NCBI GenBank assembly: GCA_027306915.1
Contig: DAHUYW010000005.1
Span: 1-64,000 of the forward strand
Source: Spirochaetales bacterium
GTDB lineage: Bacteria > Spirochaetota > Spirochaetia > DAHUYW01
DNA: 64,000 nt
Reading direction: 5' to 3'
Of the stretch, positions 13,083 through 29,179 are shown piece after piece. The notes under the pieces are model-generated. The model saw only the letters and a program-made list of their open reading frames with translations. It was not told where the DNA came from and ran no database searches. The position numbers and the translations under genes were made by a program. Numbering within the stretch: position 1 is the stretch's first letter; the number at the start of each line of letters is the position of its first letter.

Positions 13083-14201
13083 TCAGGCAAACGTCGTGGG
13101 GTGACGCGAGAGCATCTCAGGCCCGGCATCGGTCAAGAGGTAATTGCGCTCAATCCGCGCGCCGGTCCCCTCCCCGTACCAGCCGGGCTCGAGAGTCACT
13201 ACCTCGCCGGCCCGAAGCACTTCGCCGCTACCCGGCACAAAGTAGGGAGCCTCGGGCTGGCCGAGGCCGAGTCCGTGGCCGGCGTGATGCGTGAATCCCT
13301 CGGCGAGGCCGTGTCCCGCGAGTCTGGCGCGAACCGCCTCGTAGACGTCGGCGGCGTGGGCGCCGGGACGAAGCATCTCTGCGCCGGCAGTCAACGCTTC
13401 ATTGAGCCCAATCTCAATTGCCTTCTGGCGCGGGGTGAGCCTTCCGTCGACCGAGAGGGTCGCTGTATTGTCGGCCCTGTAGCCGTTCACGACCGGGAAA
13501 ATATCCAGAATCATGAGATCGCCCGCCTGAAGAGTGCGCGCAGTCGGTGCACCTCCGCCCTTCTCGGCGCGCTCGCCGCTTGCAAAATCCCCAAGCAGGA
13601 GCACCGGACCTCCGAGAGAATTGACGATCGCTGCGTGGATCGCGTTGTAGACATCGAGCTCGGTGATCCCAGGGCGGATCAGCTCCCGCGCCGCCCGGTG
13701 AGCCTCCTCGTTGGCCTTCATCGCCTCCCGGAGGAGCGCCACTTCGTCAGGGTCCTTCACGCGGCGCATGTCATGCAAGGTGGAGGCAATCTCGACGGTC
13801 TCCGAGACGTCGACCCCGGAGGGAAACCACCCTGGCTCGATGCCGAGGCGCCTTCCCGAGTAGGGCGCCAATTGCCTGCGCAGCTCCGGAATCGCAGCAG
13901 CGTAGGAATCGACCCCGGGGAGGGTCGTGAAGTCATAGGAGCGCCAGCTTACAACCTTGTCGGCGTGCGCGAGCTCGGCGGCGGGGGTGAGGCCGTTGTG
14001 GACCACGAGCGTCGCCTCGCCGCCCCTGCAATCGATCAAGAGGAAGCTTAGGCCCCATGCGCTCAGCTGCAGAGGCGTAAGGTAGAGTCCGGTGAGATAT
14101 TGGATGTGGCGCGGGTTCGCGATGACGAGGAGATCGGCATCACTGCGCTCGAGGAGTACCTTCCGCCGCCGGATGGAGCCCTCGCGGGTTAGTTTCAACA
14201 T
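13083..14201 (-). CDS. M24 family metallopeptidase (Xaa-Pro aminopeptidase-like)
   Basis: A 372-residue pita-bread peptidase or creatinase-like hydrolase. The N-terminal 140 residues form the creatinase-type domain. The C-terminal catalytic domain shows the metal ligands in order: Asp in LMILDIFPV, Asp in YRADNTATL, His in HHAGHGLGL, Glu in VTLEPGWY, and Glu in GARIERNYL. ATG 14201 is preferred over two upstream in-frame ATGs because AAGGAGG stands seven bases before it. It is convergent with the cyclase operon, separated by the chimeric relic. Whether it cleaves a dipeptide or another amide is unknown. Its place in the catabolic region hints at a role in the same pathway, but this is only context. 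Confidence 0.85.
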   Translation of the reverse strand: MLKLTREGSIRRRKVLLERSDADLLVIANPRHIQYLTGLYLTPLQLSAWGLSFLLIDCRGGEATLVVHNGLTPAAELAHADKVVSWRSYDFTTLPGVDSYAAAIPELRRQLAPYSGRRLGIEPGWFPSGVDVSETVEIASTLHDMRRVKDPDEVALLREAMKANEEAHRAARELIRPGITELDVYNAIHAAIVNSLGGPVLLLGDFASGERAEKGGGAPTARTLQAGDLMILDIFPVVNGYRADNTATLSVDGRLTPRQKAIEIGLNEALTAGAEMLRPGAHAADVYEAVRARLAGHGLAEGFTHHAGHGLGLGQPEAPYFVPGSGEVLRAGEVVTLEPGWYGEGTGARIERNYLLTDAGPEMLSRHPTTFA

Positions 14202-14373
14202 GTGCATTCCTCCTTGATCCGCCATCGCTTCGACCGCGAGCGATACAGGATACCACGTAGCACTTCTGCCGTGCAGGATGACTGGATCGAGCTCGCATCG
14301 GCGGGGGCGAAAGTCGCTCGTTGTTGTTTCCGGCTGCCAACTTACCTATAATCGAGGGCACACGGAGGAAAGC

Positions 14374-15567
14374 ATGAAGATCGTCGAACCGGAACGAGTA
14401 GGGCTTTCATCTCTACGCCTTGAACGGATCATGCCGGTCATGCAGGGATACGTCGACCGCGAGCAATTCGCCGGCGTCATTGCATTGATAGCACGCGAGG
14501 GCAAGGTGGCCTACCTTCAGAATTTCGGGTTCAAAGACAGGGAGGGCAAGCGGACTATGGAGCTCGACACGATCTTCCGAATTCATTCGATGTCGAAGCC
14601 CATCACAAGTGCCGCCGCCATGATGCTCGTCGAAGCGGGCAAAATCCGTCTCGGCGATCCCGTGTCACGGTATGTACCCGAGTTCAAGAACGCTCGGGTC
14701 ATGACGGCGCGCAACGGGTGCGACTATGAGCTCATCCCATGCAAGCGCGAGATGATCGTGCACGATCTCTTCACCCACACGAGCGGCCTGAGCTACGGCT
14801 TCGATGAGCATTCCCTGCTGGATGAAATGTATCGTAAGGAGCTCTGGGCGCGGGTCGAGACGAATCCAAACGTCACCCTCGAGGATGTGATCAACCTTCT
14901 CACGAAGCTTCCGCTCGCATTCGACCCCGGCAGTGCGTTTCGCTACAGCGTGTCGATCGATGTCCTCGGCTACATCGTACAGCTCGCCTCCGGTCAACCG
15001 TTTGACGGATTATTGAAGGAACGGATATTTGACCCGCTTGGAATGGTCGACACGGCATTCTGGGTTCCGCCGGAAAAGATCGATAGGCTTGCGACCGTTT
15101 ACGGCCCGGCAGAAGGGGGTGGGCTCAAACCGATAGATCGGCCGGAAGAGAGTCGCTTCGGCCGCCCAACCAAGAATCCCTCCGGTGGTGGCGGCCTCGT
15201 TTCCACCGTGGCCGACTATTTCCGGTTTGGCCAGATGATGCTCAACCATGGAGAGCTTGACGGTGTCCGCCTTCTTGGACGCAAGACCGTGGAGTGGATG
15301 ATGCAGAATCACCTGCCCGAGGGCGTGGCCGCGCACGGGAACCCGGCAAACGGCTTCGGCCTCGGCGGATCGGTCCTGCTGCGCCCAGGCCTCCTCCATC
15401 AACCCGGCTCGGTAGGAAGGTTCGGTTGGGGCGGCGCGGCAAACACGGAGTGGTGGGTCGACCCTTCGGAGAGGCTGCTGTGTTTGCTCATGACGCAGTA
15501 CATGCCCGCCTTCACCCTACCGATCGTGGACGACTTTGCACAGCTCGCCTACCAGGCGCTCGAGTAG
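14374..15567 (+). CDS. Serine hydrolase, class C beta-lactamase/esterase family
   Basis: A 398-residue penicillin-binding-protein-like hydrolase. The SxxK nucleophile motif is SMSK within RIHSMSKPITSAAAMM. The second motif is present as FRYSVSIDVLGYIVQ, with Tyr kept and Asn replaced (YSV). The late motif region is RFGWGGAANTEWWVDP, so an HxG/WGG-type third box as in esterases. GGAGG lies seven bases before ATG 14374, and an upstream in-frame start has no such site. No signal peptide is visible, so action in the cytoplasm is likely. Such proteins are usually esterases or amidases rather than antibiotic resistance enzymes. It is divergent from the M24 peptidase gene. Confidence 0.85.
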   Translation: MKIVEPERVGLSSLRLERIMPVMQGYVDREQFAGVIALIAREGKVAYLQNFGFKDREGKRTMELDTIFRIHSMSKPITSAAAMMLVEAGKIRLGDPVSRYVPEFKNARVMTARNGCDYELIPCKREMIVHDLFTHTSGLSYGFDEHSLLDEMYRKELWARVETNPNVTLEDVINLLTKLPLAFDPGSAFRYSVSIDVLGYIVQLASGQPFDGLLKERIFDPLGMVDTAFWVPPEKIDRLATVYGPAEGGGLKPIDRPEESRFGRPTKNPSGGGGLVSTVADYFRFGQMMLNHGELDGVRLLGRKTVEWMMQNHLPEGVAAHGNPANGFGLGGSVLLRPGLLHQPGSVGRFGWGGAANTEWWVDPSERLLCLLMTQYMPAFTLPIVDDFAQLAYQALE

Positions 15568-15615: not shown

Positions 15616-16212
15616 TCAACGATCGAGAGAGAACTTGGAGCGCACTTCATAGAAGAGGGCTTCGAAAAACGGATGCTTCTCTGTGGAAACACTGTGATCC
15701 ATCAATACTTCCTTGCGTTCGTTATTCATATACTGATACAGATAGCGCAAAGCTTCGCTTTTCCGTTCGGGCTTGAAGCATAGTTTTACTACCGACGCCA
15801 TTTCCTCGGCCGTGAAGAAATGTTTCTGCTCGTCCACGATTATATAGTAGGTCTTGGCATCAGGGGACTTCTGGATTTCTACGGTTATCTCCTCTACATT
15901 CTGCCCAACCCTTGCCGTGGTCCCGGCCCTTTTGTGCGCTTCCTTTCTGTTTTTGTTAAGCCTTTCCATTTCGGCATTCAGCTCATCGACCCGCTTGTTA
16001 TGCAGAAGGACGTTGGCCTGGCGAATCAAGAACAGCATTCCCTCCGCGTCGATTTCCGAAATCATGCTGACAAGCTCATCCGCCAGCTTGTCCCGCGCCG
16101 ATAGAGGTTTCGCCGCTTTCTTTGCAGCAGCCGCCTTTTGGGGAGGAGCTGCCTTTCTGGCTGAAGCGGCTTTCTTTAGCGGTGTCTTTCGCGCAGCTGG
16201 TTTTTTCGCCAT
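15616..16212 (-). CDS. Uncharacterised protein with histone-H1-like Lys/Ala/Pro tail
   Basis: Not a named family. The first 38 residues are almost only K, A, P, R and S (KKPAARKTPLKKAA, then AKKAAKP), like the tails of bacterial H1-like DNA-binding proteins. Residues 40-90 form a charged, probably coiled-coil region (LIRQANVLLHNKRVDELNAE). Residues 100-198 form a compact alpha/beta domain with YYIIVDEQKHFFTAEEM and EALRYLYQYMNNERKEVL. GGAAAGAAG precedes the ATG. It is the third gene leftward after the HU-fusion and FHA genes, 34 bases after the FHA gene, so probably the same operon. A nucleoid-linked role is inferred only from the tail and the HU neighbour. Confidence 0.7.
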   Translation of the reverse strand: MAKKPAARKTPLKKAASARKAAPPQKAAAAKKAAKPLSARDKLADELVSMISEIDAEGMLFLIRQANVLLHNKRVDELNAEMERLNKNRKEAHKRAGTTARVGQNVEEITVEIQKSPDAKTYYIIVDEQKHFFTAEEMASVVKLCFKPERKSEALRYLYQYMNNERKEVLMDHSVSTEKHPFFEALFYEVRSKFSLDR

Positions 16213-16246
16213 TCTTCTTTCCTCACGCGGTGATCCCCATCGACGG

Positions 16247-16594
16247 TCAGAGCCGCGAGAGCTTCAGCTGCGTGCGTCCGATCGTGATGATGTCGCCGCT
16301 CATAACCGTCACGCTCGTCTGCGCCGGCAGGGGGTTATTGTTGAGGTAGGTCTGGTTTGTGCTTCCGAGGTCCTTCAGGCGATACTCGCCGTCGATGTGC
16401 TCGATGATAGCATGACGCCGCGAGACAAGCGGGTCATCCGAAATCACGACGTCGTTGTTCTCGTCTCTTCCGATGCGAATGGTCTTCGCCATCTCGATCG
16501 TGCGATCGCGGAAGCGGAGACAAAGCTGCTTCATCTCCGAGCCGCGAGCGATTTCTCTTCCCTCGGGGCTTCTCTTGTAGACCGTGTCGTCCAT
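16247..16594 (-). CDS. Stand-alone FHA domain protein
   Basis: A small cytoplasmic phosphothreonine-binding module of 115 residues, almost all FHA domain. The key residues are present: GR in IRIGRDENND, SRRH in PLVSRRHAII, and the S/N pair in DLGSTNQTYLN (NQT where most have NGT). FHA domains bind phosphothreonine peptides, so the protein is a likely reader for the Ser/Thr kinase encoded at 19317. TAGGAG lies about ten bases before ATG 16594; an internal ATG 20 codons later is possible. The gene sits between the HU-fusion gene and the tailed protein gene, all on the minus strand. Confidence 0.85.
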   Translation of the reverse strand: MDDTVYKRSPEGREIARGSEMKQLCLRFRDRTIEMAKTIRIGRDENNDVVISDDPLVSRRHAIIEHIDGEYRLKDLGSTNQTYLNNNPLPAQTSVTVMSGDIITIGRTQLKLSRL

Positions 16595-16668
16595 GGATGC
16601 CGACTCCTACCCGAAGAGTATATCACTCCGGGGCAGGAATGGAAGGCGGGCTCGCAGTCCGGACGCGC

Positions 16669-17556
16669 CTACTCGCCGGAGGGTTCGTCGCCTTCCGGAA
16701 AAGGTAGCGAGGCTGCGCGTTCCTTCATGCGGGCGCTGAAGGACATTCGCGGCACGAAGATTTCGGGTCTCGCCGGAATCGTCATCTCCCCGCCGGTAGC
16801 AGGATTTCGTCCGACGCGCGCCTTTTGGGCCGGACGCCTGGAAAGCCTCAGATGCCCGAGGTTTCCAAGGGGCACGCTTTCGCCCATCAGGGCGCCCGCT
16901 TCGATCATTGTCAGGTAGTCGTCCAGAAGCTCTCGCGTGAGGGTCTGCGCTATCTCGTGCTTTTTTGCGAGGTACTGAACTATGCTCTTCATGGTGAAGT
17001 GGCCGATCGAATCGTCGGGGATCGTGAGGGTTCGGTTGAGCTTGACGAATCCGTTCGTGAGAAACACGGTCGCTTCACGAAGACGCTTGTCCTCTTCCGC
17101 CTGATCGAGCTTCGACGGACACACCCCGATGAGAAGCACATCGGAGGAGCGTTCGATGGGGCAGCCGCCGAAGTGGACCGGAGCGTCGATCGCGATCGAC
17201 CCCTGAATCGTGACCCCGCTCGCTTTCACGAGGCCCGGGACGTCATTGCGCAGCTTGATACTCGCGTACTCGAACCATCGCCCCTGCTGCCCGGCGCGCC
17301 CGAGGGCGACGAGCGACCCCGAATAGGTGAGAAGAACGACTCCCCGCCCATCCTCCTGGACGAGCTCGCTCGGCATCTCCATCCCCAACAGCCGGATCTG
17401 ATCCTCGAAGAGTCGTCGCTTTTCGATCCAGTTCGCGGTAATGCGATCGAGCGACTCGCGCCCGGGGGGCAGGCCCGACGATTCGGTGATCGACTCGAGG
17501 TGGCGCTTGACCCGCTCGGTGAGTATCTGCCGCAGGTATCCCTCAGAATAGACCAT
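16669..17556 (-). CDS. HU/IHF-type DNA-binding domain fused to a novel N-terminal domain
   Basis: A 295-residue two-part protein. Residues 188-282 form an HU domain: FTMKSIVQYLAKKHEIAQTL at its start and the arm signature VGRNPATGGEMTIPA followed by FVPRMSFSARMKE. Residues 1-178 are a domain with no name known to me. They are clearly paralogous to the whole product of the divergent gene at 17716: SITESSGLPPGRESLDRI against SITATSGLPETDESVERI, then LLTYSGSLVALG against VMTYSGSLLTLG, then YASIKLRNDVP against YASIELRQDVP. ATG 17556 is chosen because it aligns with the paralogue; the frame is open to 17667. It heads the minus-strand operon with FHA and tailed-protein genes. The pairing suggests a sensor or partner domain steering an HU-like architectural protein. 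Confidence 0.8.
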   Translation of the reverse strand: MVYSEGYLRQILTERVKRHLESITESSGLPPGRESLDRITANWIEKRRLFEDQIRLLGMEMPSELVQEDGRGVVLLTYSGSLVALGRAGQQGRWFEYASIKLRNDVPGLVKASGVTIQGSIAIDAPVHFGGCPIERSSDVLLIGVCPSKLDQAEEDKRLREATVFLTNGFVKLNRTLTIPDDSIGHFTMKSIVQYLAKKHEIAQTLTRELLDDYLTMIEAGALMGESVPLGNLGHLRLSRRPAQKARVGRNPATGGEMTIPARPEIFVPRMSFSARMKERAASLPFPEGDEPSGE

Positions 17557-17715
17557 AGGCTCTAAGATAGCACCAAACCGCCCAATCACCTGCTTCTTTC
17601 GCCTGAGGCCCCTTTCGATCGGGCGGCGCCGGGCTGATTTCGCGGGGTTGACGGGATATCTTACCATTCATCGGGCCGTCCATGGCGGGTTCCGGGACGG
17701 CCTGGAGGAGTTTCG

Positions 17716-18246
17716 ATGGGTGAGTACATGAGTCAGATACCCGAGCGTGTCCGCGATCACATCAGGAGCATCACTGCGACCTCGGGACTACCGGAAACCG
17801 ACGAGTCTGTCGAACGGATAGCGCAGGCCTGGCTCGAGAAACGAAATGCCTTCGAGGCGCGCATCGGCGAGTTTCAAATGGAGGAATGGGATGAGTTCGC
17901 AAAGGAGGAGGACCGAGGCGCGCTCGTGATGACCTATTCCGGCTCCCTTCTTACTCTCGGTCCGCTGGTCGCGGGCAGGCGGCCGGCGGAATATGCCTCC
18001 ATCGAGCTGCGGCAGGATGTTCCCAAGAGCGCCGACGACAAGAGCGCCTTGCTTGCCGAAGACGTACGCATCGACGAGCCGGTCGTCTTTTCCAAGGGAC
18101 CGATTCGAAAGAGCTCGGCGGTCTTCAAGATCGCGGTTCTCACGGAGCGCCTCGAGCCGAAGGAAGAATTGAAGCGATTGAGCGAAGCGACCCAGATCCT
18201 GAGCGAGGACTTCGTGGCAGTCAACAAGACGGTCATCGCCGAGTGA
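17716..18246 (+). CDS. Unfused paralogue of the HU-fusion N-terminal domain
   Basis: A soluble protein of 176 residues equal in extent to the N-terminal domain of the divergent HU-fusion protein, without the HU part. Shared blocks include TSGLPETDESVERIAQAWLE, LVMTYSGSLLTLG, YASIELRQDVP, DEPVVFSKGPI and the last helix LSEDFVAVNKTV. GGAGGAG precedes ATG 17716 at good distance. Its end is 37 bases before the phosphatase start, so it likely leads the phosphatase-kinase operon. It could compete with, or dimerise with, the HU-fusion protein; this is inference from paralogy and orientation. No catalytic motif is visible. Confidence 0.75.
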   Translation: MGEYMSQIPERVRDHIRSITATSGLPETDESVERIAQAWLEKRNAFEARIGEFQMEEWDEFAKEEDRGALVMTYSGSLLTLGPLVAGRRPAEYASIELRQDVPKSADDKSALLAEDVRIDEPVVFSKGPIRKSSAVFKIAVLTERLEPKEELKRLSEATQILSEDFVAVNKTVIAE

Positions 18247-18283
18247 GGGCGAGGCTGTCGTTTGCGCGGGGGACTGCCAACAG

Positions 18284-19333
18284 GTGAGAGAGCAGGGAAA
18301 GGTTCCCCCCTCGCTTCACGAGCTGCTCGAAGGGTATCGATCGGCGCGAACCATCCCCTCCCTATCGGCACTCGACGAGGAGCTCCGCGAGGTCAACACG
18401 GTCCTCGCATCGGAGGAGGAGAGCATTCGTCCGCTCGACCGCTTCAGCGAGCCGGGCGGGGTCGTGGAGCTCGCAAAAGACCTCCCGACCGTCCTTCTCC
18501 CCGACATCCACGCGCGCCCGGGTCTTATTTGGGCCGCCCTGAACTACGTCTTGCCGGATTCCGCGACGGTTCTTGATGCAATCCTTTCCGGCTCGATCCA
18601 GTTTGTCTGTCTCGGGGACTACTTTCACGGCGAGGGGCGGGTGAGGCAGCGGTGGAGGCGCGCCCTATCGGAGTTCGGGAAGAGCTTCACCTCACATGCG
18701 GCCATGGATGGAGAAATGACCGAAAGCCTTGCGGTGTTGATGATGATTGCGAAGCTCAAATCGGCGGCACCGGCCCGTTTCCACCTGCTGAAGGGGAATC
18801 ACGAAAACATCGCAAATGAGACGGGCGCCGGAAACCGGCCCTTCGGCAAGTACGCATATGAGGGCGCGATGGTGCTCGAATACCTTCGCATGGTCTACAC
18901 CGAGGAGCTGATTGCGCGAGTCTATGAGTTCGAGAAGCGGCTTCCGCTCCTCGCGATCGGCTCCCACTTTCTCATCAGTCACGCTGAACCTTCGCGCTTT
19001 TTCTCGCGCGAAGAGGTCATCGAGTATCGTGATCGCGACGAGGTGATTTACGGCCTGACCTGGACCGATAACGACCAAGCCGAACAGGGAGCGGTGGAGC
19101 GGATGCTCGATCACTACCTCGATCCGAGCGCAGCTCCAACGGCCTTGCATTTCGGCGGCCACCGTCCTGTCGCGGGCAGGTACAGTCTGCGTGCGGCGGA
19201 GAGGTACGTGCAGATTCATAACCCGTCCCGATACATAATGGCGCTGCTTGCTCCGGATCGCCCCGTCGAGCTCTCCCGCGACGTGATAGATCTGGGAGCC
19301 TGCGAGGATACAGACGATGGCTCGAGCTCCTGA
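18284..19333 (+). CDS. PPP-type metallophosphoesterase (protein Ser/Thr phosphatase-like)
   Basis: A cytoplasmic phosphatase of 349 residues with the calcineurin-like metal motifs in order: LPDIHARP (DxH), FVCLGDYFH (GDxx, with FH where PPP enzymes have VDR), LLKGNHEN (GNHE), LISHAEP (His), and HFGGHRPV (GH). The two-metal centre should therefore form. It starts at a GTG (18284) with a poor ribosome binding site. Its last 17 bases overlap the start of the kinase gene, so the two opposing enzymes are made from coupled frames, as in known bacterial kinase/phosphatase pairs. It probably removes phosphates placed by that kinase. The missing DR of the usual GDxVDRG box makes it a divergent PPP member. 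Confidence 0.8.
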   Translation: MREQGKVPPSLHELLEGYRSARTIPSLSALDEELREVNTVLASEEESIRPLDRFSEPGGVVELAKDLPTVLLPDIHARPGLIWAALNYVLPDSATVLDAILSGSIQFVCLGDYFHGEGRVRQRWRRALSEFGKSFTSHAAMDGEMTESLAVLMMIAKLKSAAPARFHLLKGNHENIANETGAGNRPFGKYAYEGAMVLEYLRMVYTEELIARVYEFEKRLPLLAIGSHFLISHAEPSRFFSREEVIEYRDRDEVIYGLTWTDNDQAEQGAVERMLDHYLDPSAAPTALHFGGHRPVAGRYSLRAAERYVQIHNPSRYIMALLAPDRPVELSRDVIDLGACEDTDDGSSS

Positions 19334-21233
19334 CACCATCGGAAAATACAGGGTCATCTCGGAGATTGCGCGAGGCGGCATGGGCGCAGTCTATACCGCC
19401 TCGCACCCCACACTCGACCGAACGGTGACCATAAAGAAGCTCACGCTGCGCGGAAGCGCGGCCGTACGCGAGCGCTTCAGGCGTGAAGCGTCGATCATGA
19501 TGGACTTCCGAAACGAGTACATAGTCGACGTCTTCGATCACTTTCGCGAGGGACCCGCCTACTACATCGTTCAGGAATACGTCGACGGGGTTTCGCTTTC
19601 CCAGCTGCTGGAGCGCGAGCGGTATCTCCCCGAGCGGGTGGCGCTGATGATCTTCCGCGACTGCTGCCGGGCATTGAAGTACGCCCACGATCGCGGCGTC
19701 ATCCACCGCGATATCAAACCCGGCAACATTCTCCTTTCGCGAAAGGGCGACGTGAAGCTCGTGGATTTCGGCATCGCGCACATTGAAGACGACACCGAGG
19801 AGGCGCTCACCCGAGAGGGGATGATGCTCGGCACGCCGTCCTACATGGCGCCAGAACAGTTTCGGGACACTCGGAGCGTCGACAAGCGGGCCGACATTTA
19901 CTCCCTTGGCGTCATGCTGTATGAGATGCTGACCGGGAAGCGGCCCTTTTCGGGCTCTCTCACGCCCGAAACGCTCAAGGCCATCCAGCATGGGAAATAC
20001 CGAAAGCCGCGGAAGCATAATCCGGCGATTACGCGATTCGCCGCTCGAGTGATTCGAAAAGCGATGAGTGCCAAGAGAGCGCGGCGCTACCAGGACGTCG
20101 GTGCCATCCTACGAAGGCTCGACCGAAAGCTCGGATCGCGATCGGTGGGAGACCAGAAAACCCAGATCGCCTCATTCCTGAGCGGGACGTGGTCACCGCC
20201 GAAGAGGCGCTCCCGTATCGCGCGGGCAGTTGTCCCGATCGTCGCCGTCCTCCTTCTCCTCGGCGCCGGAGCGGCATACTACGGTTTCCAAAGCGGGCTC
20301 GCCTACGAGCTTCTCTACCCAGATCGCTACGGCACGCTCGGGCTGACCGTACGGGTTGCTAGCGGGACACGGCCGGCTCATGAGACGTTCGTGTCGGCTG
20401 AGCTGTTTCGCGACGACGGAAACGAGATACCTCCAGTGCCGGGAGCTCATTTCACATTCCATGCGGACCAAGAGCAGAGTACCCGGGAGATGGAGGTCTT
20501 TGTGAGCCGAAACCTCCACATTCCCGCCGGCCAGTACCGCATCAAGGTGATGGCTTCCGATCAGCTGGTGTGGAGGGGCTTCTATCTCCAGTCCCATCAA
20601 CAGCAGCTTGCCACCTCTGGGGGTACATCGGGCGGGAATCTCGTTGTTTCAATCGGCAAAGAGGCGAGCCTGCCCCTTTCGGTATCGATTGAGGTTCGAT
20701 CGGCCGCAGGCGGAGAGACGATCACGGCCGGGACGACCGTCGAGGTGTATGCGAACGGGTCGTGGGTGCCGTTCGCGGGGGACATCGTCTCCGCCCTCAA
20801 ATCCGGCCGCACCTATCAGTTTCGTTTCACGCACGACGGATACTACTCGGCAGACTACGCGCTTGCGGTGTATCCCTTTCAAAGTGAGCTGCAGATAGAT
20901 GCGGAGTTAGTCCCCTACCCCGGGGCGCTCGATCTGTCGGCGAGCGCACACGATATCCGCGTTAACCTCGATGGATCGGACACCTATCGCGCGTGGGGCC
21001 GAACGCCTCATTTCGCGCCGATACCTCGGATCGGCACGCAACCCGCCGAGCTTCGCCTTTCTCCGGGTTCGCACACGCTCGCGGTGCGCAGCGGCTCGAT
21101 GACGGGCGAGCACACCTTCAGCGTGCTCCCGCTGACGCAGCTGGACCTGAAGATCGTTCCGGATCGGAAGTCCGGCAAAATCCTGTTCGAGAGCGGCGGG
21201 TACACCGATGCGCCCGGTCTTCAGGAGCGATGA
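19317..21233 (+). CDS. Transmembrane Ser/Thr protein kinase (PknB-like)
   Basis: A 638-residue membrane-spanning kinase. Residues 11-270 are a complete Hanks-type catalytic domain: glycine loop IARGGMGAVY, ATP lysine K40 in VTIKKL, catalytic HRDIKPGN with D132, DFG at 150, and TPSYMAPEQ ending the activation loop, which contains candidate autophosphorylation threonines. Residues 301-323 form a single membrane helix. The remaining 310 residues are outside the cytoplasm, rich in beta-strands and aromatic residues, with no PASTA repeats; they may bind a ligand or wall component. The start overlaps the phosphatase gene and the end is three bases before the next gene. Likely substrates or readers are the FHA proteins on both sides. 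Confidence 0.93.
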   Translation: MARAPDTIGKYRVISEIARGGMGAVYTASHPTLDRTVTIKKLTLRGSAAVRERFRREASIMMDFRNEYIVDVFDHFREGPAYYIVQEYVDGVSLSQLLERERYLPERVALMIFRDCCRALKYAHDRGVIHRDIKPGNILLSRKGDVKLVDFGIAHIEDDTEEALTREGMMLGTPSYMAPEQFRDTRSVDKRADIYSLGVMLYEMLTGKRPFSGSLTPETLKAIQHGKYRKPRKHNPAITRFAARVIRKAMSAKRARRYQDVGAILRRLDRKLGSRSVGDQKTQIASFLSGTWSPPKRRSRIARAVVPIVAVLLLLGAGAAYYGFQSGLAYELLYPDRYGTLGLTVRVASGTRPAHETFVSAELFRDDGNEIPPVPGAHFTFHADQEQSTREMEVFVSRNLHIPAGQYRIKVMASDQLVWRGFYLQSHQQQLATSGGTSGGNLVVSIGKEASLPLSVSIEVRSAAGGETITAGTTVEVYANGSWVPFAGDIVSALKSGRTYQFRFTHDGYYSADYALAVYPFQSELQIDAELVPYPGALDLSASAHDIRVNLDGSDTYRAWGRTPHFAPIPRIGTQPAELRLSPGSHTLAVRSGSMTGEHTFSVLPLTQLDLKIVPDRKSGKILFESGGYTDAPGLQER

Positions 21234-21236
21234 CAT

Positions 21237-22211
21237 ATGACAATTCTCATTCGACGCCTCATACAGCTCGCCCTCGGAATTGCCGCCGGCCTCGCGGCGT
21301 GGCCGGTGATGGAAGGGCTCGTCCATCTCCAGGTGTTCTTTCCGAGCTATCTCGCCTATTCGGTCGTTTCCGGCGCGCTCTTCGGACTGATCTTCGGCGC
21401 CTTTCTGGGAGGCGCCGACGGCATCATCGCTTCGCACCCAAGGCGCATCGTGCTGGGCTCGGCGGCCGGCGGACTTGTCGGCGCCGCCGGCGGCGCTATC
21501 GGATTTCTCGCGGCCCAAGGGCTTCTTTTCCTCGTCGGCGAATATCTTGTCGGCAACCTTCACCTTGTGGAGAGCATCGGGACGCCCCTTGCTCGGGCCC
21601 TTGGGTGGGCGGTGCTTGGGGCCTGCGTCGGGGCGGCGGCAGGCATCCGCTCTACCTCGCCACGCAAGATCGCCATCGGGGCCCTGGGCGGATTCGTCGG
21701 GGGCATTCTCGGCGGCGCGGCAATCGAGTACGGACGGCTCTTCTTCCCTGCGCTTCCCGTGGTGCATCTCGTGGCTTTGGTTCTGCTCGGGGTCCTCATC
21801 GGACTTGCCTACGCCGTCGTGGAGAGGCGTCTCTCCTTCGGCATTTTCAGGGTCTTGAATGGTCCGTTCAAGAGCAGGGAGTACATCCTCAACCAGCGGA
21901 AGATGGTCATCGGCTCCGACGCCCGCTGCGACATTCCCATTCCCGCCCAGAAGAGCGCCCTGCCGGAGTCGGCGAGCGCAGGAAGCTCGGCAGGCTACCG
22001 TGAGGTTGCCGGTGCGCATTGCCGGCTCGTTGCCAGGGGACGCGATCTCTTCATCGAGCCGATGGAGGGGATCGTACGGGTAAACGATGAAAGGCTCGCG
22101 GGAAGACAGGCCGCCGATTCCCAGCCGACCGCGCGCGAGTGGGGAGCCGCCTTGAAGTTCGACGACATCGTTGCGTGCGGGGCGGTGAAGTTTCTCTATA
22201 AGCGTGAGTAG
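21237..22211 (+). CDS. Polytopic membrane protein with degenerate C-terminal FHA-like domain
   Basis: A 324-residue protein. Residues 1-200 hold about six Gly/Ala-rich membrane segments (for example SGALFGLIFGAFLGGADG and IAIGALGGFVGGILGGAA). Residues 215-324 have the strand pattern of a FHA domain: YILNQRKMVIGSDARCDI, GAHCRLVARGRDLFIEP, VRVNDERL, and LKFDDIVACGAVKFLYK. The residues that hold phosphothreonine are changed: GS instead of GR, and GAHC instead of SRRH, so phosphopeptide binding is doubtful. It follows the kinase stop by three bases and its end overlaps the frame before the vWA gene start, so it is in the same operon. It may anchor or couple the kinase with the vWA protein. Confidence 0.7.
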   Translation: MTILIRRLIQLALGIAAGLAAWPVMEGLVHLQVFFPSYLAYSVVSGALFGLIFGAFLGGADGIIASHPRRIVLGSAAGGLVGAAGGAIGFLAAQGLLFLVGEYLVGNLHLVESIGTPLARALGWAVLGACVGAAAGIRSTSPRKIAIGALGGFVGGILGGAAIEYGRLFFPALPVVHLVALVLLGVLIGLAYAVVERRLSFGIFRVLNGPFKSREYILNQRKMVIGSDARCDIPIPAQKSALPESASAGSSAGYREVAGAHCRLVARGRDLFIEPMEGIVRVNDERLAGRQAADSQPTAREWGAALKFDDIVACGAVKFLYKRE

Positions 22212-22221
22212 GAGGCACGAG

Positions 22222-23688
22222 ATGGGGACCGTTAGGCACAGAGCGAAACCGGCCGTAGCGTCGATGGCGTTGGTTCTTCTCCTCGCGGCGGCGGCGCCTG
22301 CCTTCGCCCAGGAGCAGGTGAGCATTGCGCAAATTGATCCTTCGCGGCTTCTCACCCGACAGGAAGTGGATGTCTACGTGGGAGTCGCCGGGCCGGATGG
22401 GAACGCCGTGACCGGGCTCGATGCGGGCGACTTCTCGATGTCGGAGGGGTTGCCCGGCAAGCCCCTGCTGCCGGTTTCGCACTTCTCGTTTCACGAGGGG
22501 GCTCCCGCAAACGAGGGCCTGGCTTTCTTTCTCCTCGTCGACAACTCCGGAAGCATGTACGAGCCGCTCGATACCTCTCCAGACGGGGAACGACAACAGA
22601 CCCGGATTGAAGCCGCGCGCTCCGCAATCCGCGTCTTTCTTAACTCGGTCGACAACCCGGCCGACCGGATCGGTCTTGCGTCATTCAATACCCTCTATCG
22701 GGTGGAGGCGCTTCCGACGCGCATGCGCTCGGAGACGGAGGCGGCGCTCGCGAGGATTGCGCGGCCCGCGGAAGCCAATTCCTACACGGAGCTCTATGCG
22801 TCGATCAAGGCCGCCGCAAGAGATCTTTCCGGATGGAAGGGACGCAAGGTGATAATCCTCCTGACCGACGGGGAGAACTATCCCTATGCTCTCCATACCG
22901 GCAAGCCGAATCCCCAATTCGGATCGACTCTGGTTTCGAGCGACGAAGCAGTGCACGCCATCATTCGCGAGGGCATATCGGTATTCCCGATTCAGTTCGG
23001 TCCCGATCGGCAGGACTCCGACCTCCAGACCATCGCCCGACAGACCGGGGGACGAGTGTTCGACGCCCGCAGCGAGAGTGGGCTCGCGAAGGTGTATCTT
23101 GCCGTGCGCAGGCGCGTGCTCGAGGAGTATCGCCTGACTTATTCGCCGAGAATGATTCCCGGCGACCGCAGGGAAGTGCACGTCGAATATCACGGGCCGG
23201 GAGGAACGGCGTCGGCTTCCCAGTACTACTTCGTCGGAACCCTCTTCGGCCCGCCTGCCGGAAGGCTGAGCCCTCTCATCGCGATACCCTTCCTGATTGC
23301 TCTCTTTGCTTGGTACCTCATCAGCAAGGCGCGTTTTCTCAATCGCCGAAAGGATGCGAATCTTGAGGTTCTTGGCGCAGGAGCGACGAAGGTCTTTTCA
23401 CTCAACGAGGGCAAGACGGTGATCGGCTTTGACGCCACCAGGCGCATCACCGTCACCTCGGAGGAGGAAGGCAAAGGAAAACAACAAGGGCCCGCAGCAG
23501 GTAAGATTACGGTGGTCAAGGACGAGAGGACCGGTTCATTTACGGTCGTGAGCGAAGATCCCGTCATGGTCAACAACCGTCCCGTTCAGCGACGGCTCCT
23601 TCGCCCCGGCGATGTGCTTCGCATCGGTGAGGCAACGATTGTTTTCGACGACCGCTCCCCAGAAGAGAAACAAGGGCCGAAGCAGTAG
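22222..23688 (+). CDS. Secreted-side vWA domain, TM helix, cytoplasmic degenerate FHA domain
   Basis: A bitopic receptor-like protein of 488 residues. A signal peptide ends near AFA/Q (residue 29). The vWA domain has a full MIDAS metal site: DNSGS at 107-111, T189 in SYTEL, and D216 in LLTDGEN. A membrane helix at 350-368 (LSPLIAIPFLIALFAWYLIS) is followed by about 120 cytoplasmic residues with a FHA-like fold (TVIGFDATRRITV, then PVMVNNRPV, then LRPGDVLRIGEATIVF). The phosphothreonine-binding Arg/Ser pair is not conserved. ATG 22222 is chosen: AGGAGG at 22210-22215 is six bases before it, and the upstream GTG 22204 has no site. Last gene of the kinase operon. A role relaying an outside binding event to the cytoplasmic FHA/kinase group is inference. 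Confidence 0.82.
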   Translation: MGTVRHRAKPAVASMALVLLLAAAAPAFAQEQVSIAQIDPSRLLTRQEVDVYVGVAGPDGNAVTGLDAGDFSMSEGLPGKPLLPVSHFSFHEGAPANEGLAFFLLVDNSGSMYEPLDTSPDGERQQTRIEAARSAIRVFLNSVDNPADRIGLASFNTLYRVEALPTRMRSETEAALARIARPAEANSYTELYASIKAAARDLSGWKGRKVIILLTDGENYPYALHTGKPNPQFGSTLVSSDEAVHAIIREGISVFPIQFGPDRQDSDLQTIARQTGGRVFDARSESGLAKVYLAVRRRVLEEYRLTYSPRMIPGDRREVHVEYHGPGGTASASQYYFVGTLFGPPAGRLSPLIAIPFLIALFAWYLISKARFLNRRKDANLEVLGAGATKVFSLNEGKTVIGFDATRRITVTSEEEGKGKQQGPAAGKITVVKDERTGSFTVVSEDPVMVNNRPVQRRLLRPGDVLRIGEATIVFDDRSPEEKQGPKQ

Positions 23689-23882: not shown

Positions 23883-24140
23883 GTATCTTGATTGACGTCC
23901 CGAAGAAGGCCGCTATACTTGAACGAGGTTGTCGCCAGCGACGGCAATCGGGTTTCCGGCCTCTGCGGAGCATTCCTCGCCGGGTCGATCAACTGGAAGG
24001 ATCCGGAGGAGGAGTACCCCGCAGCATCTACGCTCGCCGCTCTCATGGCCTGTCCCTTTGGGCGGGGAGCTTCTGCACATTCGCGCCTCGAATTGCGGGA
24101 CAGGCGGACTTTCGAGTCCCGACCGCGAAGGAACGAGAGG

Positions 24141-25562
24141 ATGAAAACACGGATGCTGTCTACGGTGTGCGTGATGGCAGCGCTCGCGATCGCGGGTTGC
24201 ACCTCCGACCGGCCGTCGCACGCGGCATCGAACGCCGTCGCGTATGTGACGGATGGGAGCTCGCCTTTCAAGCAAGTAGCCGTCACCGTCGGCGGGAAGT
24301 CCGCCGACGTCGTGGTCGACCCCGCCCAAACTCGCCAGACGATCGAGGGATTTGGAGGCGCCTTCAATGAAAAGGGGTGGCAGGCGCTCCTCTCGCTCCC
24401 CGAAACGGAACGCAGCGCCGTCATGCAGCGGCTCTTCGACCCGACGGAGGGGCTCGGGCTTCGCATCTGCCGGGTTCCGATCGGGGCGAGCGACTACGCC
24501 CTCGACCGCTACACCAACGACGAGAGTCCGGGCGACTACGCAATGAAGGACTTCTCGATCGCGCGCGACCGCAAGCTCCTCATCCCCTACATCCGGGCTG
24601 CCCTCCGATACCAGCCCGAGCTGAAGCTCTGGGGCTCCGCCTGGACCCCCCCGACCTGGATGAAGAGCAACGACGCCTACGACGGGGGATCGTTTCGCAG
24701 CGATCCGCGCATCTACGCGGCCTACGCCGCCTACCTCGCCTACTTCATCAAGTCCTATCGCGCCGAGGGGCTCCCGCTCGACCTCGTTGCGGTGCAGAAC
24801 GAGCCGCTCGTCCAGCAGCACTATCCCTCCTGCCTCTGGACTCCTGAGCAGTACCTCATCTTCGTCCGCGACTACATGGGACCCCTCTTCGCGAAGGAGG
24901 GGCTCGACGACGCAATCATGCTGGGGACCTTCAATGAGGGCGATGAGCTTCCGCACGCCGCTGGGGTCTTGAAGGATCCGGTCGCGCGTAGGTACGTCTC
25001 CGTGGTGGGGCTCCAGTGGTCGGGGATCGACCTGATTGGAGCCCTCCGCTCGAGCGATAAGGGCTTGCGTTTTTGGGAGACCGAGACGGATTGCGGGAAC
25101 TGGCCGTGGAGGGGCGGATTCGATGCGGATCGCCCGCCGAACGACATCACCTACGCAGCCTACACCTGGGGGCTGATGCGGGATTATCTTGAGGCCGGAG
25201 TCTCGGTCTACGAAATGTGGAACATGGTACTCGACCAGAACGGAAAGAATATGGACGTCGTGCGCCCTTGGCCGCAGAACAGCGCCGTCGTCGTCGATAC
25301 GAAGACAAAGACCGTCACCTACACCCCTATGTACTACGCCTTCGGGAGTTACAGCAAGTTCGTGCCTCCAGGATCGAGACTGGTCCAATCCGGCGGGATG
25401 GATCCGAACGCGGTATGCTTCGTCAGGCCCGACGCGACGGTCGTTGTCGTCCTGTACAACGCCTCCTCAAGCGAGCGCGTCGTGCGAGTCCGGATCGGGA
25501 GCATCAGCTACGGCATGCCGATGAGCGGGCGCTGCTTCGGAGCGCTCGTCGTCCAGAGCTAG
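24141..25562 (+). CDS. GH30 family glycoside hydrolase lipoprotein (glucosylceramidase/beta-glucosidase type)
   Basis: A secreted, lipid-anchored hydrolase of 473 residues. ATG 24141 begins a lipoprotein signal (MKTRMLSTVCVMAALAIAGC); the frame upstream is open but carries no such signal. The TIM barrel shows the GH30 marks: IEGFGGAFNEKGW, then APPTWMK-like TPPTWMKSN, then acid/base Glu in AVQNEPL, then nucleophile Glu in FWETETDCGN. The C-terminal strand domain (YYAFGSYSKFVPPGSRLV) is the usual beta-structure. Family enzymes cleave beta-glucosyl or beta-1,6-glucan links with retention. Possible substrates are beta-glucans; the glucan synthase gene is 3.7 kb downstream, but direct linkage is not shown. 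Confidence 0.9.
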   Translation: MKTRMLSTVCVMAALAIAGCTSDRPSHAASNAVAYVTDGSSPFKQVAVTVGGKSADVVVDPAQTRQTIEGFGGAFNEKGWQALLSLPETERSAVMQRLFDPTEGLGLRICRVPIGASDYALDRYTNDESPGDYAMKDFSIARDRKLLIPYIRAALRYQPELKLWGSAWTPPTWMKSNDAYDGGSFRSDPRIYAAYAAYLAYFIKSYRAEGLPLDLVAVQNEPLVQQHYPSCLWTPEQYLIFVRDYMGPLFAKEGLDDAIMLGTFNEGDELPHAAGVLKDPVARRYVSVVGLQWSGIDLIGALRSSDKGLRFWETETDCGNWPWRGGFDADRPPNDITYAAYTWGLMRDYLEAGVSVYEMWNMVLDQNGKNMDVVRPWPQNSAVVVDTKTKTVTYTPMYYAFGSYSKFVPPGSRLVQSGGMDPNAVCFVRPDATVVVVLYNASSSERVVRVRIGSISYGMPMSGRCFGALVVQS

Positions 25563-25595: not shown

Positions 25596-25635
25596 GAGCG
25601 ACACCTGCGTGAAGGGACAAAGGAGGAAAGAGCAC

Positions 25636-26508
25636 ATGGAGAGAGCTGTTGGATTGGGATGGATACCGGATTATCCGGACATACGAGACTATGCGACGGT
25701 GCATGCAAAGATCAAGGAATCCTTCGCCGGACTGCAGGCTCACCAGCCGGTCAAAGCCGGCGCCTCGGTCGATTTGCGGCCGTGGTGCTCACCGATCGAA
25801 GATCAGCTCAAGCTTGGATCGTGCACGGCGAATGCGGCAGCGGGGATGTACGAGTATTTCGAGCGGCGTGCGAAGGGCACCTACATCGACTGTTCCCGCA
25901 TTTTCCTCTACAAGGTTACTAGGAATCTTCTTGGCTGGAAGGGCGACACGGGGGCCTACCTGAGGACTGCCATGGGAGCCTTGGCTCTCTTCGGGACCCC
26001 GCCTGAAAAGTACTGGCCATACGACGTAGCCGATTTTGACAAGGAGCCGACTGCCTTCTGCTATGCATTCGCCCAGAGCTTCCAGGCGCTCCTGTACTAT
26101 CGACTCGATCCGTTTGGAACGGCCCCGGCCGCCTTCCTCCAGAACATCAAGAACTACCTCGCCGCCGGGCATGTCTCCATAATCGGCTTCACGGTCTACG
26201 ATTCATACACGCAAGCTGCCTCCAACGCAGGGAAGATCCCCTTCCCTGTTCCTGCGGATCGTGTGGTCGGCGGCCATGCGATTGTCCTGGTCGGCTATGA
26301 CGATGGGGTGAAGATCAAGAACGCTAATCCAGGCGCGGTCGAAACCACGGGCGCTCTGCTCATTCGGAACTCCTGGGGATCGCAGTGGGGCGATAGCGGC
26401 TACGGCTGGCTCCCCTATGAGTACGTCCTGCAAGGGCTTGCCGTCGACTGCTGGTCGATGACGAAGGCAGAGTGGATCAGCACCCAACAATTCGGTCTGC
26501 CTGCGTGA
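25636..26508 (+). CDS. C1 family (papain-fold) cysteine peptidase
   Basis: A 290-residue papain-like protein. The catalytic Cys is in EDQLKLGSCTANA, the His in VGGHAIVLVGYDD, and the Asn in IRNSWGSQWGDSGYG. The N-terminal GWIPDYPDIRDY is typical of bacterial and archaeal C1A members that lack a propeptide. No signal peptide is seen, so it may act in the cytoplasm or leave by a route not visible here. AAAGGAGG lies about ten bases before ATG 25636. It is preceded by a stem-loop and 73 bases after the GH30 gene, so it may have its own promoter. Substrate unknown. Confidence 0.87.
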   Translation: MERAVGLGWIPDYPDIRDYATVHAKIKESFAGLQAHQPVKAGASVDLRPWCSPIEDQLKLGSCTANAAAGMYEYFERRAKGTYIDCSRIFLYKVTRNLLGWKGDTGAYLRTAMGALALFGTPPEKYWPYDVADFDKEPTAFCYAFAQSFQALLYYRLDPFGTAPAAFLQNIKNYLAAGHVSIIGFTVYDSYTQAASNAGKIPFPVPADRVVGGHAIVLVGYDDGVKIKNANPGAVETTGALLIRNSWGSQWGDSGYGWLPYEYVLQGLAVDCWSMTKAEWISTQQFGLPA

Positions 26509-28037: not shown

Positions 28038-28187
28038 ATGACGAAGCAATCGTTCGAACAGAGACTTGTTGTTGCGCGTGTTCTCAATCGGTACGTCCAG
28101 CAGCGCGCCCTGCTCGATTGGAACAAGGCGGTCCTAGCCGCGCTTGAAAAGTGGATCGACACGAAACCGAAGCAGACAGCCAGTTAG
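28038..28187 (+). CDS. Small 49-residue protein downstream of the recombinase
   Basis: An ORF starting at ATG 28038, preceded by AAAGGAG at suitable distance, ending at TAG 28185-28187. The peptide begins MTKQSFEQRLVVARVLNRYV and ends KWIDTKPKQTAS. It is basic, lacks Cys, and looks fully helical. I do not recognise a family. It begins 60 bases after the recombinase stop and ends at a GC hairpin, so the two could be one transcript. A role as accessory protein of the recombinase is possible but is only positional inference. Confidence 0.55.
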   Translation: MTKQSFEQRLVVARVLNRYVQQRALLDWNKAVLAALEKWIDTKPKQTAS

Positions 28188-28203
28188 GCGGCCGCCAGGC
28201 CGC
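28188..28203 (+). terminator. Possible terminator hairpin after the small ORF
   Basis: GCGGCC-GCCA-GGCCGC forms a perfect 6-base GC stem with a 4-base loop directly after the TAG of the small ORF. A weak pyrimidine run (GTTTCTTCCCC) follows a few bases later. Confidence 0.4.
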
Positions 28204-28291
28204 GGACGTTTCTTCCCCAACCAGCCGCACCAGGCAGAATGCTCGGCTATCGCTCGCAGATGAGCCCGTCAGATCGGGCAAGGAGAATTGT

Positions 28292-29179
28292 ATGAGTTAT
28301 TGGATGGTTCTTGGTGTCATCGTTATCGTCGTGTTTTTCTTGAGTGGGATCAGGGTGATTCGCCCAACGATGCGAGGCCTGGTGGAACGCATGGGTAAGT
28401 ACCACCGCTATGCCAGTCCCGGTTTCAACTGGATTATTCCGATGATCGACAGGATGTTCAAGATCAATATCACCGAGGTTATGGTCAACGCGGAGCCGCA
28501 GGAGATCATCACCAGCGACAAGCTCAACGCAAGCGTCGACGCGCAGGTCTATTTTAAAGTCAAGAGCGACGAGGAGAACGTAAAGAACTCCCAGTACAGC
28601 GTCAACGATTACAGATATCAGATCGTCAACCTTGCCCGTACGACGTTGCGCAACATCATCGGCACGATGACCCTGATGTCGGCGAACAGCGAGCGGGGGA
28701 AGATTAACCGTGAGCTCCATCAGACGCTGCGCGAAGAAACCGCGCATTGGGGAATCGATATCGTCAGAACCGAGTTGAAGGAAATCGAGCCGCCCGAGGA
28801 GGTTCAGATGACGATGAACAAGGTGGTGCAGGCCGAGAACGAAAAGGTCGCGGCGATCGACTTCGCTACGGCGACCGAGACGATGGCGGATGGCGCAAGA
28901 AGGGCCGAGATCAAGAAGGCGGAAGGGGTGCGGCAGGCGAAAATCCTCGAAGCAGAGGGCGAGGCGCAGGCCATCAAGCTCGTGAACGAAGCGGCTGACA
29001 AGTATTTCGTGGGCAACGCTCAGCTGCTCAGGAGACTCATGACGGTTGAAACAGCGCTCTCGGCAAATGCGAAAATCGTGATTCCGTCAAACACGGAGCT
29101 CGTAAACGTCATCGGAGAGATGGCGGGAATCCTGCCGTTCAACCACAACGGCAACGGGAATGTCAAAGAGAAGGCGTGA
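28292..29179 (+). CDS. SPFH/band-7 membrane protein (stomatin/prohibitin family)
   Basis: A 295-residue membrane-anchored scaffold protein. An N-terminal hydrophobic segment (MSYWMVLGVIVIVVFFLSG) is followed by the band-7 domain (VIRPTMRGLVERMGKYHRYA, then SPGFNWIIPMIDR, then ARTTLRNIIGTMTL) and a long charged coiled coil rich in A, E and K. The end is VIPSNTELVNVIGEMAG. AAGGAG stands before ATG 28292, and the open frame upstream lacks a site. Relatives form oligomers at the inner membrane and assist membrane proteins or proteases. No NfeD-type partner is adjacent. The next gene is a giant glucan synthase starting 72 bases later, so a shared membrane role is conceivable. Confidence 0.88.
   Translation: MSYWMVLGVIVIVVFFLSGIRVIRPTMRGLVERMGKYHRYASPGFNWIIPMIDRMFKINITEVMVNAEPQEIITSDKLNASVDAQVYFKVKSDEENVKNSQYSVNDYRYQIVNLARTTLRNIIGTMTLMSANSERGKINRELHQTLREETAHWGIDIVRTELKEIEPPEEVQMTMNKVVQAENEKVAAIDFATATETMADGARRAEIKKAEGVRQAKILEAEGEAQAIKLVNEAADKYFVGNAQLLRRLMTVETALSANAKIVIPSNTELVNVIGEMAGILPFNHNGNGNVKEKA

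Follow-up and report, generated by a model that had tools for sequence, protein, structure and literature searches.

The 64,000-nucleotide stretch analyzed here (positions 1 to 64,000 of contig DAHUYW010000005.1, assembly GCA_027306915.1, from a Spirochaetales bacterium; hereafter the window) carries eight adjacent genes, g1 to g8, of which g2 to g8 form a real, conserved and coherent set, partly as a first-pass annotation of the same DNA had proposed. The set consists of a small FHA protein (g2), a protein in which an orphan N-terminal domain (the N-domain) precedes an HU/IHF domain (g3), an N-domain protein without HU (g4), a phosphatase (g5), a membrane Ser/Thr kinase (g6), and two membrane proteins (g7 and g8). 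We suggest that these genes encode a membrane kinase/phosphatase switch whose targets would be a GarA-like FHA protein and the pair of N-domain proteins, one of which carries a DNA-bending module. We give this reading a probability of about 0.45.

The families were searched for in 392 Spirochaetota genomes, and the conservation of the gene order was examined in 54 loci that were read around matches and scanned with profiles seeded from the eight proteins of the window. Other Spirochaetota loci contain 45 N-domain open reading frames (ORFs) of the g4 type, without HU, three of which have another C-terminal extension (L086 to L088) and one of which (L089) is incomplete at the end of a contig. 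Downstream of 37 of the 45, g5 and then g6 follow on the same strand, and g7 and g8 continue the series in 33 of these 37, the remaining four being truncated by contig ends. Seven of the other eight g4-type ORFs have none of g5 to g8 downstream, and the last (L073) is followed by g6 without g5. A metagenome-assembled genome of the Spirochaetales has a near-identical copy (locus L001, in which g3 is 89% identical), and all eight genes are found in L036. Because the order recurs in distant relatives, the neighborhood is more than chance. An all-against-all comparison of the locus ORFs revealed no further family beyond g2 to g8 that recurs in many loci; the extra recurrent ORF families are probably antisense frames of g2 to g8, judging by their position. 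The search for co-occurrence in spirochaete genomes that the first-pass annotation had called for thus found relatives that keep the neighborhood. Its link between a phospho-signaling island and nucleoid-type proteins stands insofar as the kinase, phosphatase, FHA, transmembrane (TM), vWA and N-domain-HU proteins are conserved together, but the H1-like gene g1 is probably not part of the set.

The g3 query matched 92 of the 392 genomes at E <= 0.001, many of them via the HU part only, and a full-length N-domain-HU gene is present in 30 of the 392 genomes and in one further genome outside that set. The g4 profile finds N-domains in 46 genomes, and g5 has matches in 108, of which 96 are strong (E below 1e-25). 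Strong g5 matches occur in 29 of the 30 genomes with g3, G076 being the sole exception, versus 67 of the 362 without it (Fisher 1.2e-18, a value that treats the genomes as independent, though they are related). In a protein database search, every taxon name among the 120 of 187 matches listed was spirochaetal, most rows being nameless.

In the window itself, an ORF check recovered the island as annotated, with all eight frames in two divergent units (Table 1) and with a 17-base overlap in which g5 and g6 share positions 19317-19333. The overlap between g7 and g8 is 8 bases if the GTG start of g8 is used. For g3, the start at 17556 is likelier than that at 17667, because the ten best database relatives are 286 to 297 aa long. 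The domains assigned to g2 (FHA), g3 (HU), g5 (phosphatase), g6 (kinase) and g8 (vWA) all have Pfam matches above cut-off, including Bac_DNA_binding in g3 (42.9 bits, cut-off 22.4), Metallophos in g5 (25.4 bits, cut-off 21.5) and VWA families in g8 (52.6 and 50.3 bits).

Table 1. Genes and intergenic region of the g1-g8 locus in the window
Feature	Position	Strand	Description	Evidence
g1	15616..16212	-	Lys/Ala/Pro-rich H1-like N-terminal tail; probable passenger	ORF and positions of relatives
g2	16247..16594	-	FHA protein of 115 aa; phospho-Thr site intact; N-terminal threonine in DxT[IV]	Pfam FHA, 75.3 bits
g3	16669..17556 (longer ORF: 16669-17667)	-	N-domain plus HU/IHF domain	Pfam Bac_DNA_binding
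Divergent intergenic region g3-g4	17557..17715	.	159 bp if g3 starts at 17556; both promoters likely lie here	Position only
g4	17716..18246	+	N-domain alone; paralogue of g3	Predicted fold and sequence identity
g5	18284..19333	+	Divergent PPP-type metallophosphatase	Pfam Metallophos and invariant motifs
g6	19317..21233	+	Hanks-type Ser/Thr kinase with one TM helix and a C-terminal region of ~310 aa of no known family	Pkinase, 178.1 bits
g7	21237..22211	+	Glycine-rich protein with several TM segments; FHA-like tail, degenerate	Hydropathy, invariant glycines
g8	22204..23688	+	vWA protein (MIDAS motif present) with signal/anchor, TM helix and an FHA-like tail that is degenerate	Pfam VWA_2, 52.6 bits

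The kinase and the phosphatase form, as judged from sequence and comparison, a conserved pair with intact catalytic motifs and metal ligands. In g6, the HRDIKPxN and DFG motifs are conserved at 90% or more in 40 aligned rows, and hydropathy indicates a TM-like stretch at residues 299-324, past which the C-terminal region varies among relatives. The protein scores 270.8 bits against the PASTA kinase (PknB/Stk1) family, under the cut-off of 450, and no PASTA domain was found in it by the Pfam scan. In g5, seven residues (D74, H76, D112, N172, H173, H233 and H293), which make up DxH, GD, GNHE and two later histidines, are invariant in 20/20 sequences, and from the roles known in PP1 we take them to be metal ligands. 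The PPP motif GDxVDRG is replaced by GD(Y/G)xH(x)E, in which H115 and E117 are likewise invariant (20/20). Compared with solved PPP enzymes, the g5 sequence matches PP5 and BSU1 weakly (E 0.29-0.74), and its profile matches PP1 weakly and over the GNHE stretch only (E 0.004-0.01). From its motifs, we read g5 as a divergent, PPP-like phosphatase. One locus contains a second kinase-like ORF directly after g8 (L076:8787-10028; 293 bits to the g6 profile and 66 to that of g2).

The candidate substrate of this pair is g2, whose phospho-Thr-binding site is kept throughout the family, with GR in 27/27, SRxH in 25/27 and S[ST]N[GQ]T in 27/27. An N-terminal threonine, usually within Asp-x-Thr-Ile/Val, was found in 27/27 by a motif search in which L057 and L060 were special-cased, their Thr motif lying in an extension, and in 25/27 in the aligned column. 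A g2 orthologue is present in the stretch read of 11 public cluster loci. FHA ORFs in L069 (beside g4) and in L084 were not counted as orthologues, since the N-terminal motif is absent from both and their tails differ. By profile search, full-length g2 (a match starting at model position <=4 with E below 1e-30, a rule fixed after the results were seen) is present in 29 of 41 cluster-type genomes. Excluding the 11 genomes that served as profile sources, it is present in 18/30 versus 0/55 controls (Fisher 7.2e-11, which again treats related genomes as independent). The controls are genomes without g5 and N-domain matches, perhaps less related to the window, and they gave FHA-domain matches only, none reaching the g2 N-terminal motif.

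The same three proteins also occur as a smaller unit. From 60 genomes with strong g5 outside clusters, 20 g5 neighborhoods without an adjacent g4 were sampled; 15 of them have the order g2-g5-g6, four have g5-g6, and one has g5 alone. An FHA-phosphatase-kinase unit thus occurs without N-domain proteins, and profile searches of the 15 genomes with this minimal unit found no clear g7 or g8 orthologues. The idea that g7 and g8 are general companions of the kinase was rejected: the best matches (E 5.6e-7 for g7, with matches in 10/15 genomes; 2.4e-15 for g8, with matches in 11/15) were short or weak, and we read them as probable generic FHA, TM or vWA similarity. The core is found in a minimal form and in an extended form, to which the N-domain proteins and g7-g8 are added. 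The minimal units raise the question of whether the output might be metabolic, with g2 acting as an inhibitor of enzymes in the manner of GarA/OdhI and the N-domain/HU branch being secondary. When g2 is compared with PDB sequences, GarA and OdhI come up among the best matches, and they have in common with it the layout of an N-terminal Thr and an FHA domain. However, g2 reaches only 46.5 bits against the OdhI equivalog model, far under the cut-off of 200, and the all-against-all comparison brought up no recurrent metabolic neighbor, so that we regard a mainly metabolic output as improbable.

Part of the extended form is the N-domain, for which neither Pfam nor NCBIfam has a matching family: g4 has no match in either, and all that Pfam gives for the N-terminal half of g3 is a match below threshold and at chance level. 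The description of g4 as an unfused paralogue of g3 proved correct, as the g3 query finds the g4 of the sister genome with 44% identity (E 4.9e-35). The AlphaFold2 model of g4 (predicted local distance difference test 91.1, predicted template modeling score 0.87) is helical at the N-terminus, contains eight strands and has a long helix at the C-terminus. This layout also precedes the HU domain in g3. The invariant residues concentrate in the TYSGSL and RxDVP stretches, which possibly form a binding site. In a profile comparison with the PDB, the HU part of g3 matches HU/IHF chains. It is not a stand-alone protein of ~90 aa, but sits behind the N-domain of 180 residues. Its arm in the window reads RNPATG and contains the DNA-intercalating proline, which is kept in 24 of 32 g3 proteins (23 by pattern, and L056 by eye). 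A second kind of N-domain fusion, with a non-HU C-terminal region, was seen in three genomes (L086:9442-10464, L087:5080-5970 and L088:8152-9102), and in G055 the N-domain is present in several copies spread over different contigs (L069, L070, L071 and L088 are the G133 and G055 loci).

In a tree of 78 N-domains, all 32 of the g3 type fall into one clade (support 100/100), which within this sample means a single origin of the HU fusion. In 20 of the 31 public g3 loci, g3 is divergent from g4 and less than 500 bp away, and in two more it lies at the other end of the cluster. This arrangement could also be explained if g3 were a local IHF-like regulator of the divergent operon and g4 its anti-regulator, in which case the signaling genes would be the output and no wider change of DNA architecture would follow. 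The divergent position, the single ancient clade of g3 N-domains beside g4 and the restriction of the HU domain to g3 all fit such a circuit, yet g3 has been retained in the 11 of 31 loci in which it lies away from the g4 promoter. We consider a merely local role unlikely.

The remaining members of the extended form, g7 and g8, are membrane proteins. For g7, the family alignment shows invariant glycines, and in g8 the residues of the metal ion-dependent adhesion site (MIDAS; D113, S115, G116, S117 and D222) are invariant in 16/16, with TM-like stretches at 14-36 and about 351-376 by hydropathy. The only Pfam match of g7 is a sub-threshold one to Yop-YscD_cpl (27.2, cut-off 33.2), as is that of the g8 tail (11.9), and g7 scores 18.3 bits against the type III secretion SctD family, whose cut-off is 86. 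The first-pass annotation had called g7 FHA-like and g8 a vWA-TM-FHA protein. A weak resemblance to the YscD/FHA cytoplasmic fold can indeed be seen, but in the window both tails are without the GR and SRxH that bind phospho-Thr. We rejected them as phospho-Thr readers: GR occurs in 2/31 g7 and 2/34 g8 tails and SRxH in 1/31 and 0/34, and neither the two together nor S[ST]NG was found in any of the 31 g7 or 34 g8 tails (one 31-residue g8 row and one contig-cut g7 were dropped from the count). Since no relative has both GR and SRxH, the tails are likelier scaffolds than readers, which leaves g2 as the sole competent reader of the set. A single open frame covers g7 and g8 in four loci (L051, L057, L060 and L072), joined at the same place and with the topology expected from the separate proteins; L057 and L060 are closely related, and assembly errors are possible in these fusions. 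Such natural fusions indicate that the two proteins work together as a single membrane unit, with the vWA domain on the outside and both FHA-fold tails on the inside.

On this basis, the proposed switch could work as follows. The kinase g6 would phosphorylate the N-terminal Thr of g2, as PknG and PknB do on OdhI and GarA, and perhaps also g4 and g3, and g5 would reverse the phosphorylation. The phosphorylation may set whether the FHA site of g2 is self-occupied or free for partners. The first gene of the g4-g8 unit is g4, whose domain recurs once, HU-fused, in g3; the two proteins may share a binding surface via the N-domain, which would link g4, together with the membrane unit, to g3 and hence to DNA. 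The g7-g8 unit would be the probable scaffold and sensor, and the state of the membrane complex would set how much g3 is available for DNA binding and bending. The simplest target would be the divergent promoter, and there may be others. The DNA step is one that we infer for g3. A broader version of the proposal would see here a spirochaete-specific envelope-to-nucleoid relay, in which the vWA/TM scaffold and the kinase steer the HU-fused twin via the orphan N-domain, so that Ser/Thr phosphorylation reaches DNA shape directly without a two-component regulator; so far-reaching a scheme must be called doubtful.

Several observations weigh against the switch as proposed. In 8 of 32 g3 proteins the HU arm has F or L where the proline would be, and full-length g2 was not found in 12 of 41 cluster-type genomes. 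Nine of the 31 public g3 loci have no g4 in the stretch read, although several of these stop at contig ends, and in G132 g3 and g4 are ~3 Mb apart. In several genomes (among them G056, G133, G255, G176, G141 and G170, some of them drafts) the cluster is present without a detected g3. The adjacency of g3 and g4 could be a relic of duplication, and the mechanism as a whole is drawn from sequence comparison. Clusters without g3 and the wide separation in G132 would be expected if g3 were a by-product, that is, if g4 had been duplicated beside itself, one copy had gained HU, and g3 were now independent of the kinase system. A g3 freed from the kinase system accords poorly with the retention of strong g5 in all g3 genomes except G076, at a far higher rate than in genomes without g3, and we find this explanation quite unlikely. 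We retain the kinase/phosphatase switch with its N-domain pair as the preferred reading.

Of the genes around the set, g1 had been counted as an H1-like component of the system. Its only Pfam match is a sub-threshold one to RNase_E_G (15.9, cut-off 25.5), and its relatives, present in 69/392 genomes, represent a wider spirochaete family that is found away from the g2-g8 cluster. Among the loci scanned, g1 adjoins the cluster only in the window and in L036, its closest relative, and we rejected it as a component; it is probably a passenger gene. On the far side of g1, the window encodes a serine beta-lactamase-fold hydrolase (14278-15567) and an M24 peptidase (13083-14225). Downstream of g8 are a GH30 protein (23892-25562), a papain-like C1 peptidase (25609-26508), a Band_7/SPFH protein (28151-29179) and a protein of 2917 aa (29252-38005) with two GH94 supersandwich matches and GH94 catalytic, glucoamylase-like and GT2-like domains, which resembles a cyclic beta-glucan synthase.

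Spirochaetes have been little studied for Ser/Thr phospho-signaling. One early survey reported no such Ser/Thr kinase in Treponema pallidum or Borrelia burgdorferi (PMC1262709). The genes described here provide a defined conserved set: a kinase together with its likely phosphatase and its likely FHA substrate, and two proteins that share an orphan domain, one of them fused to a DNA-bending partner. They make it testable whether Ser/Thr kinases reach DNA architecture via a dedicated protein, and they give a first handle on the N-domain, an unnamed domain whose fold is confidently predicted. Neither the g2-g8 gene set nor an HU domain fused to a partner domain of a kinase cluster was found in the literature searched, the coverage of which was partial.

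Known systems share parts of the set. The TerY-P triads and the PpkA/PppA/Fha proteins of type VI secretion systems combine a vWA or kinase-linked vWA protein, a kinase, a phosphatase and an FHA protein in one neighborhood. Their phosphatases are of the PP2C type, whereas g5 is calcineurin-like (Pfam Metallophos). The actinobacterial PknB/PknG-GarA/OdhI switch resembles the spirochaete set in having a Hanks kinase and a small FHA protein with a Thr N-terminal of the FHA domain. Its phosphatase is again a PP2C, PstP, whereas that of the spirochaete set is PPP-type; the Thr of g2 lies in DxT[IV] and not in ETTS, and the N-domain, the HU fusion and g7-g8 have no counterpart in the switch. PknG has been reported to phosphorylate OdhI at Thr14 (PMC2784874). 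Phosphorylation can also act on HU, as Ser/Thr phosphorylation, with Thr37 of DrHU as the site, is reported to alter its DNA binding (PMC9900698). In that case HU itself is modified, whereas the HU part of g3 is attached to a distinct orphan domain, and the spirochaete set, this fusion included, is known from sequence. As described in two papers (PMC7472852, PMC6509490), the Arn system of Sulfolobus consists of the FHA protein ArnA, the vWA protein ArnB, the kinase ArnC and the phosphatase PP2A and acts on gene expression. It is archaeal, its vWA protein differs from the spirochaete one, which has a signal/anchor and a TM helix, and the abstracts of the two papers name no HU fusion or N-domain. 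It nevertheless combines the four kinds of protein seen here, namely FHA, vWA, Hanks kinase and PPP-type phosphatase, a likeness by part list, and on that measure the Arn system is the nearest working analogue of the spirochaete set.

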